DNA of 64,000 bases, taken from positions 186,001 to 250,000 of the forward strand of contig CAJXVM010000001.1 in assembly GCA_913061095.1 (NCBI GenBank), in the 5' to 3' direction. Positions within the stretch are counted from its first letter, which is position 1. Every line of letters starts with the position of its first letter. This stretch comes from an uncultured Ignavibacteria bacterium (lineage in GTDB: Bacteria > Bacteroidota > Ignavibacteria > SZUA-365). Both the position numbers and the translations under genes were made by a program. Shown in pieces: positions 38,772 to 40,267 of the stretch. The notes beneath the pieces were generated by a model. That model saw only the letters and a program-made list of their open reading frames with translations, was not told the origin of the DNA and ran no database searches.

Positions 38772-39092
38772 TCACTCTTTCGGGAGAGGTGGTGGGACGG
38801 GTCCGGCCGATGACGACGCGGACCGCGTTTCAGCCGCGGTTGCCGCCGCGGTCTCAGGAGTCCGGGTAGTGGAGTCGGCATTCCCGGAAGCGGCGCTGTT
38901 CACATCGCGTTCAAAGATCAGGAAATGCGCTTCACGCTTGAAAAGAATGAGCCAGCGTTTTTCTTCCTTGATCGTTGTGCGGAGCCGCCATCCGGCACCG
39001 GCCTGCTGATTGATCGCCTGCGTCAGTTTTGCCGGATTCATTGATCCGCTCAGACATCCGGTCATGTAGACCTCGACGTGATATTCTCTCAT
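38772..39092 (-). CDS. DUF4177-like small protein
   Basis: 106 residues. Residues 1-65 ('YHVEVYMTGCLSGSMNPAKL', then 'INQQAGAGWRLRTTIKEEKR') fit the DUF4177 pattern, with the typical 'a-x-x-G-W-x-L' core. The tail is Ala/Thr/Ser/Pro-rich. The start overlaps the yidD stop (ATGA) and an 18-base gap leads to the GYF_2 gene. No activity is known for the family. Confidence 0.7.
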   Translation of the reverse strand: MREYHVEVYMTGCLSGSMNPAKLTQAINQQAGAGWRLRTTIKEEKRWLILFKREAHFLIFERDVNSAASGNADSTTRTPETAAATAAETRSASSSAGPVPPPLPKE

Positions 39093-39391
39093 GATTCACC
39101 ATCTGTATTGATTGGAGGGTCGTCATCGATGACCGGTGCGGATGTGTCACAGCGGCGCAGCCTGTCGGCGATCAGCGGCAGGGCCCGGCGCAGCGGGAGG
39201 TGCAGCAGGCAGAGACGGGCATACTCCGAGCAGCTCGGGTGGAAGCCGCACACTCGATAGCCGCGCGACCGGCGCCGGTTCCGGTACAATCCGATCAGCC
39301 AGAGCAGAGGAACGTTGAGAATTCTCCGGGCTGAATGGTGCGTCTCACTGGCAACATTTCGTCCATCATGTACCGAAACCATTGACATCAT
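39089..39391 (-). CDS. yidD: Membrane protein insertion efficiency factor YidD
   Basis: About 100 residues with the YidD core 'LLWLIGLYRNRRRSRGYRVC' and 'GFHPSCSEYARLCLLHLPLR', containing the hallmark C-x-x-x-PSCSEY arrangement. YidD assists YidC-mediated insertion at the inner membrane. The start is uncertain: ATGs at 39391, 39388 and 39382 are close together and the frame is open to 39466. The usual rpmH-rnpA-yidD-yidC neighbourhood is absent; here yidD leads a small envelope operon and lies downstream of the four-palindrome array. Confidence 0.82.
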   Translation of the reverse strand: MMSMVSVHDGRNVASETHHSARRILNVPLLWLIGLYRNRRRSRGYRVCGFHPSCSEYARLCLLHLPLRRALPLIADRLRRCDTSAPVIDDDPPINTDGES

Positions 39392-39498
39392 CACCGGATC
39401 CAAAATTTGTAACCTCGATACCCGCTGAAGGTGCATCGCGGGATGAAATACTATTGCCGTCACCATCCGGAGATGGTGAAAAATGCTTGCATTATTTT

Positions 39499-39582
39499 TA
39501 CCCGGGTAATATCAGGTTTTTACCCGGGTAAAAATCCATTTTACCCGGGTATAATTCTCAGCTCAGGGTTTTTATCCGGGTA
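39499..39582. promoter_or_regulatory. Array of four TACCCGGGTA palindromes with helical spacing
   Basis: Perfect copies lie at 39499-39508, 39521-39530 and 39542-39551, and a one-mismatch copy (TATCCGGGTA) at 39573-39582. Centre-to-centre distances are 22, 21 and 31 bp, close to two, two and three helical turns, so all sites face the same side of the DNA. Each is flanked by T and A runs. This is the look of a cooperative operator for a dimeric repressor. The array sits between yidD (minus) and the initiator tRNA gene (plus). The regulator is unknown. Confidence 0.8.
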
Positions 39583-39659
39583 TTATTCACATCAGAATTG
39601 ACAGATTCCAAATTTCAGGTGACGTTGATGCATTTTCCCGAAGCTTCCCGATTCTCCGG

Positions 39660-39690
39660 TTGCAATCCGCCCAATGATTTTGTATATTTA
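39660..39690 (+). promoter_or_regulatory. Bacteroidetes-type promoter of tRNA-fMet
   Basis: TTG at 39660-39662, a 20-base spacer and TATATTTA at 39683-39690 match the FCB primary sigma pattern (TTG-N19/20-TAnnTTTG) closely. The tRNA begins nine bases after the -7 element. Confidence 0.6.
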
Positions 39691-39698
39691 AAATCCAC

Positions 39699-39771
<73 letters not shown>

Positions 39772-39775
39772 CAAG

Positions 39776-40084: not shown

Positions 40085-40113
40085 TCTGAACAACGGGCCG
40101 AAGGACCGCCACA

Positions 40114-40232
40114 GGCGGGGTGGAGTCCGCCGCAGGCGGAGTAGCTCGTCGGGCTCATAACCCGATGGCCGAAGGAGCGCCATGGCGCTCCGCAGGTCCG
40201 CCGCCGGCGGAGTTCAAGTCCAGCCCCCGCTA
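40114..40232 (+). pseudogene. tRNA-fMet pseudogene split by GC palindromes
   Basis: Three blocks match the intact tRNA: the 5' acceptor plus start of the D-arm (40115-40125), the D-stem 3' strand through the anticodon arm (40142-40165), and the T-loop to the 3' end (40212-40234). Between them, the D-loop is replaced by TCCGCCGCAGGCGGA (40126-40140), and the variable loop plus the 5' strand of the T-stem by about 46 bases with GGAGCGCCATGGCGCTCC (40174-40191) and TCCGCCGCCGGCGGA (40197-40211). The T-stem can no longer pair, so it should not be a working tRNA. The anticodon arm is untouched, which argues against a group I intron. Confidence 0.85.
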
Positions 40233-40267
40233 CAAAGACCCTGAAAATAAACGACTTAACTTCGGTC

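Follow-up and report, generated by a model that had tools for sequence, protein, structure and literature searches.

Phased palindrome arrays in an Ignavibacteria genome as putative binding sites of the DUF2239 protein family

MetJ, with its met boxes, and other ribbon-helix-helix repressors act on tandem short palindromes, to which they bind cooperatively and through which they regulate their own synthesis. The met boxes of MetJ are 8 bp in length and abut one another. Repeats of the REP/MITE type are present in many intergenic copies per genome and are lineage-restricted, and chromosome marker sites of the parS/Noc type are dispersed palindromes bound by one protein. The palindromes considered here, which lie between yidD and a tRNA-Met gene of an uncultured Ignavibacteria bacterium, can be compared with each of these systems. 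In contrast to the met boxes, they are 10 bp long and are set two or three helical turns apart (21-22 or 30-32 bp) rather than abutting. Like REP/MITE repeats, they form arrays that are numerous, intergenic and restricted to a lineage, but their unit is a putative operator that recurs in many phyla upstream of a single gene family, and the arrays are strictly helically phased and lack shared homologous borders. Like parS/Noc sites they are dispersed and have one proposed binder; however, they occur in clustered phased arrays tied to the DUF2239 family (PF09998), which is not known for such a role. No DNA-binding role or operator for this family is described in the literature searched: queries for DUF2239, PF09998 and COG3644 (presumably the same family) and for longer operator strings returned no papers, the matches listed for ribbon-helix-helix proteins held nothing on the family, and those listed for TACCCGGGTA appear to concern unrelated subjects.

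The explanation favoured here is that the palindromes in the window (the whole stretch of 64,000 nucleotides that was analysed) form one of 21 phased arrays to which the genome's own DUF2239 protein would bind. In most hosts, a pair of TAYCCGGRTA sites with a spacing of 27-29 bp would allow DUF2239 to repress its own promoter, whose -35 element falls between the two and whose -10 element is reached by the second; DUF1330-like and alpha/beta-hydrolase genes would be additional targets in some genomes. In the source genome (G000) and one congener, the site appears to have been multiplied into short intergenic arrays that place every site on the same face of the helix and to which, we infer, dimers of DUF2239 bind cooperatively. 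Taken as a whole, and with repression at the window locus left open, this account is considered probable. The sequences themselves show that the arrays exist, that they are phased and that site and DUF2239 go together throughout the family. That DUF2239 binds the site is considered highly likely.

The initial annotation described three perfect palindromes and a one-mismatch copy in an AT-rich gap, and regarded such an array as very unlikely to arise by chance. Both the positions and the sequences of the four sites are as claimed (Table 1), with start spacings of 22, 21 and 31 bp, and all four match the family-wide TAYCCGGRTA. When one mismatch to TACCCGGGTA is allowed, the window contains seven matches against 0.68 expected, a number reached by none of 100 dinucleotide-preserving shuffles. 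The gap (39467-39698) has a G+C content of 40.5%, compared with 58.4% for the whole window, and of its flanking genes yidD was confirmed by Pfam, while ARAGORN calls a tRNA-Met (cat), the putative initiator tRNA of the initial annotation.

Table 1. Coordinates of the palindrome array in the window and of the features around it
Feature	Position	Strand	Remarks
Site 1, TACCCGGGTA	39499..39508	.	Exact sequence match
Site 2, TACCCGGGTA	39521..39530	.	Exact sequence match
Site 3, TACCCGGGTA	39542..39551	.	Exact sequence match
Site 4, TATCCGGGTA	39573..39582	.	Still fits TAYCCGGRTA
Whole array with AT-rich site flanks (WTTTTACCCGGGTAAAAT-like consensus)	39495..39586	.	
yidD	39089..39466	-	PF01809; start codon uncertain
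Weak leftward promoter match TTGGAA-18-AATAAT, candidate yidD promoter	39582..39611	-	Touches site 4
Promoter match of the tRNA gene, TTGCAA-17-TATATT	39660..39688	+	Clear of the array
tRNA-Met (cat)	39699..39772	+	ARAGORN

Across the source genome, TACCCGGGTA is found in 64 exact copies, compared with two for the reversed control. These copies are clustered: every one lies within one of 21 arrays (62 in 20 arrays and two in an array on contig C36) and none is solitary. With one mismatch allowed, TAYCCGGRTA has 73 sites in the 21 arrays, giving 52 spacings, all of which measure 21-22 or 30-32 bp, i.e. two or three helical turns (21 bp, 10; 22 bp, 35; 30 bp, 1; 31 bp, 3; 32 bp, 3). These spacings are strongly phased to 10.5 bp (p ~1e-20, treating them as independent, an independence that is partly broken by tandem duplication of units). 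The flanks of the sites extend to the consensus seen in the window, and one array (L049) stands before the genome's own DUF2239 gene, at approximately G000:C2:325568-326191, outside the window. The right flank of L049 and the left flank of another array, L060, share a 70-bp stretch that is 91% identical and inverted, a dispersed GC-rich repeat of this genome; L060 also carries a 45-bp direct repeat.

A comparison of the genome with 60 relatives connects the site to DUF2239. A pair of TACCCGGGTA copies with 8-38 bp between them is found in six of these 61 genomes: 42 pairs in the source genome, 14 in G004, and one each, at 28 bp, in G001, G002, G003 and G009. Each of the four single pairs directly precedes a gene of about 200 codons that encodes DUF2239; three of the four were scanned, and score 239.4-250.5 bits to PF09998 against a curated cut-off of 25. 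The source genome's own member, scanned as two pieces, gives 188.7 and 52.1 bits. In G004, an array likewise precedes DUF2239. The family is present in seven of the 61 genomes, namely the six that bear pairs and G008, where degenerate copies of the site occupy the same place upstream, so that all seven genes have a site, and no pair was found in any of the 54 genomes in which DUF2239 was not found (Fisher p 1.3e-7 for co-occurrence of pair and gene, shared ancestry ignored). Arrays are confined, among the genomes tested, to the source genome and its congener G004, whose DUF2239 proteins group together (100/100), separately from the remaining five (100/94). The relatives with a single pair provide natural controls for array expansion, and the genus may offer a case of a two-site autoregulatory operator multiplied into phased genome-wide arrays. 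When 394 further genomes from the phylum were searched, two proved to contain one exact pair each, and one of these pairs (L195) lies before DUF2239. The other, L194 (G285:C1:73532-73562), consists of two TACCCGGGTA copies spaced 21 bp apart, and the stretch read around it contains no DUF2239.

The association extends well beyond these relatives. A scan of named genomes gave at least 594 candidate stretches for DUF2239, of which at least 579 were confirmed, and the present account offers this family a function open to test and a precisely defined DNA site. The best 80 loci were kept, and represent proteobacteria, Chlorobi, planctomycetes, acidobacteria, actinobacteria, Chloroflexi, Melainabacteria and others. 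With no motif presupposed, TACCCGGGTA emerged as the most enriched 10-bp palindrome upstream of the gene (22 of 80 loci, 0.0 expected), followed by TATCCGGATA (11 of 80, 0.0 expected); CCCGGG is present upstream of 48 loci against 5.2 expected, and ACCCGGGT of 34 against 0.1. TAYCCGGRTA occurs exactly in 53 of the 80 upstream regions and with at most one mismatch in 76, with two or more sites in 54, and 40 of 55 spacings between its sites are 27-29 bp. A pair 26-30 bp apart, two mismatches being allowed, was found in 58 of the 80 regions compared with three of 1599 control windows, and all four loci that lack a TAYCCGGRTA match still possess a pair. Many pairs have TTGAC between both sites and an AT-rich, -10-like stretch after the second, which is the layout of a promoter-overlapping repressor. 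The array in the window shares only the site with these loci; it has neither a 27-29 bp pair nor a -35-like TTGAC between its sites. Plasmids also carry the family (24 records), and all six copies read have sites, although those in Acinetobacter are weak. Two phage records contain DUF2239, both of Acinetobacter phage MD-2021a, and no array with a 10-13 bp gap was detected in viral contigs. Variant cores occur at a few loci: the pair at L116 and L136 (Collimonas) has CCAAGG and CCAGGG cores, and at L173 (Acinetobacter) the site cores are shifted to CCCTGA/CCCCGA. Such shifts are possible natural specificity variants of DUF2239.

Exact pairs were also sought throughout 77 genomes of the 80 loci (all but those of L109 and L153 and of L099, which by length and coordinates is the same record as G003). 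Nineteen were found, in 18 genomes and with at most two per genome, and 16 of these are at DUF2239 when coordinates are compared by hand. Of the remaining three, that in G095 stands before an alpha/beta hydrolase gene, that in G122 before a DUF1330-like gene, and that in G136 before a DUF1330-like gene with a similar hydrolase gene behind it. At L140 and L157 (Bradyrhizobium), a pair stands before a DUF1330-like gene that is oriented like DUF2239 and starts about 1.2 kb ahead of it. DUF2239, DUF1330 and hydrolase genes are consecutive on a Paenibacillus plasmid, and DUF2239-DUF1330 occurs on Rhizobium and Eleftheria plasmids. Here, 'DUF1330' is the product name in the records, and two members scanned against Pfam gave no match at 1e-4. 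Genes of one group that lie apart but carry a common upstream site are usually taken to share a regulator, and the predicted regulon comprises DUF2239, the DUF1330-like protein and the alpha/beta hydrolase. In the source genome, candidates for the hydrolase are generic matches only, with 31-32% identity. A MatE transporter gene lies 3' of DUF2239 on the same strand, and the neighbour cluster to which it belongs covers 13 of the 80 loci (L112, for which PF01554 was matched, L124, L126, L128, L130, L131, L140, L151, L154, L156-L158 and L164), and a functional link between the two is possible.

Because the site is found upstream in 76 of the 80 loci, the pair often straddles the promoter, and pairs elsewhere precede DUF1330-like and hydrolase genes, DUF2239 is probably an autorepressor. 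Another regulator could instead bind TAYCCGGRTA and control DUF2239, the DUF1330-like gene and the hydrolase, with DUF2239 a mere target, as might be suggested by the sites before DUF1330-like and hydrolase genes that have no adjoining DUF2239 and by the unproven DNA-binding fold of DUF2239. This is improbable: the site accompanies DUF2239 in many phyla, whether or not the other genes are present; a different regulator would need an equally wide co-occurrence, and none is evident among the 14 largest neighbour clusters listed. DUF2239 itself possesses an invariant basic GRPxLG stretch and a putative strand-helix-helix segment.

The L099 protein was modelled with AlphaFold2 (mean pLDDT 84.3). 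In the model, an N-terminal alpha/beta part is joined to a helical C-terminal part by a disordered linker (76-98), which holds the GRPxLG stretch, a sequence we take to be AT-hook-like. The segment around a nearly invariant REVTLLPRHWxWL, folded alone, adopts a strand-helix-helix arrangement at low confidence (pLDDT 62), and it is in this respect that DUF2239 may resemble MetJ, its REVTLL...WL...GGAS...LRKLVE pattern reading, again with low confidence, like strand-helix-helix. Neither the whole model (best E 1.7) nor the segment found a match in the PDB, and a second structure comparison with the whole model gave a best Z of 5.9, within the range of common helical arrangements. In contrast to the ribbon-helix-helix repressors, DUF2239 resembles no solved structure in sequence or in fold; a ribbon-helix-helix fold is thus a guess. 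This lack of a relative for the model counts against the favoured explanation, as the DNA-binding fold is only putative.

The arrays of the source genome differ from the DUF2239 operator in their surroundings. The initial annotation had asked which genes follow the clusters, and apart from DUF2239, with its site upstream, the answer is a functionally unrelated set. Pfam scans of 40 flanking proteins (the nearest genes and a few next ones, some as pieces) identified, among others, S-adenosylhomocysteine hydrolase, the nitric-oxide reductase NorB, phosphofructokinase, a SpoU methylase, prolyl oligopeptidase, a DEAD helicase, a diguanylate cyclase and TrkA, and a coherent regulon was rejected on this basis. 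Classed by hand, the gene orientations at 20 of the 21 arrays (that on C36 was left out) are divergent in eight cases, tandem in nine and convergent in three. Background gaps of at least 60 bp at the same loci amount to 4974, 7417 and 3955 bp for the respective classes, as judged from crude gene calls, and the convergent share does not differ between arrays and background (p 0.44). A promoter bias was accordingly rejected, and a simple promoter regulon for the arrays is unsupported, given the unrelated flanking genes and background-like orientation classes. Incoherent neighbours and three convergent gaps of 20 fit plain operators poorly. Crude open reading frames overlap some arrays (e.g. L051, L053, L068 and L070), and are taken to be putative miscalled starts or spurious frames.

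Neighbours of this kind raise the question of an architectural role, in which arrays of DUF2239 sites would anchor the folding, bridging or partitioning of the chromosome instead of serving as operators. The absence of promoter bias and the strict helical phasing would suit such a role, as would two cases (L061/L071 and L052/L075) in which the source genome and G004 keep an array in the same neighbourhood but in a different gap. However, the arrays are unevenly spaced, with three within 31 kb on contig C11, among the genomes tested they exist in two only, and elsewhere the site is promoter-bound, which makes this role rather unlikely. A bolder version of the favoured account, unlikely as a whole, is that DUF2239 is an undescribed sequence-specific DNA-binding family, which represses its own gene in most hosts but in one lineage, near Ignavibacteria isolate BM516, turned into a chromosomal protein that forms arrays throughout the genome; there it would oligomerise on 21 phased landing pads and silence or anchor loci.

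The arrays might also have no function or be selfish repeats, having arisen from the DUF2239 operator as copies that multiplied and spread, the bound protein being merely titrated. Whole units are exactly duplicated in tandem in L050, L052, L060 and L061, spacers recur between arrays, and the arrays are confined to one genus. This origin is nevertheless quite unlikely: beyond short scattered repeats, the flanks of different arrays show no homology, and most spacers differ while the sites remain exact. In addition, the array next to the 3' end of the gene for a SpoU methylase persists in both genomes with a changed number and spacing of sites (two at 22 bp in L054; three at 31 and 32 bp in L069), which hints at selection on its presence. 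This is one of three gaps shared with the source genome among the ten G004 array loci read, a set that is incomplete as that genome is fragmented; the others lie before DUF2239 (L049/L088) and before a choice-of-anchor gene (L059/L074). Five of the ten have no match to the source genome in the stretches read. That only three of ten share a gap also counts against the favoured explanation.

At the window locus, the array had been read as a cooperative operator for a dimeric regulator of yidD, the initiator tRNA or both. Its description as a set of phased sites for a DNA-binding protein stands, in view of the genome-wide clustering and the tie to DUF2239; a dedicated operator controlling the initiator tRNA was rejected. 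Where the initial annotation suggested a TetR/LacI/MarR-type regulator, the gene found to co-occur with the site is DUF2239. The array does end only 116 bp before tRNA-Met, but the best promoter match for this gene begins 77 bp beyond site 4, clear of the array, the 20 other arrays lie beside unrelated genes, and no tRNA-Met was seen at any further array locus that was read in either G000 or G004, which leaves tRNA control extremely improbable. The 21 near-identical arrays, together with the site before DUF2239 in many phyla, argue that the palindromes are most likely landing sites for DUF2239 and not an initiator-tRNA switch. Control of yidD is possible, as a weak leftward promoter match touches site 4, a match of which 0.8 would be expected by chance on both strands of the region. 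Since this match abuts site 4 and that of the tRNA does not, any effect of the array on a gene at this locus is more likely to concern yidD. That it represses an adjacent gene, for example yidD, is a tentative proposal; the best guess is that DUF2239 binds the four sites cooperatively and represses leftward transcription, with tRNA-Met served by its own promoter outside the array. Relatives of this yidD were not found at E values up to 0.001 in the 11 related genomes searched.

Beyond the intact tRNA-Met gene, a decayed second copy (40112-40236) retains the anticodon region CTCATAACCCGA and the 3' end GTTCAAGTCCAGCCCCCGCTACAA; it is interrupted by two GC-rich palindromic inserts and is not called by ARAGORN. 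A small gene encoding a GIY-YIG domain (PF01541; 39836-40084) lies between the intact and broken copies, as if its insertion had duplicated tRNA-Met.
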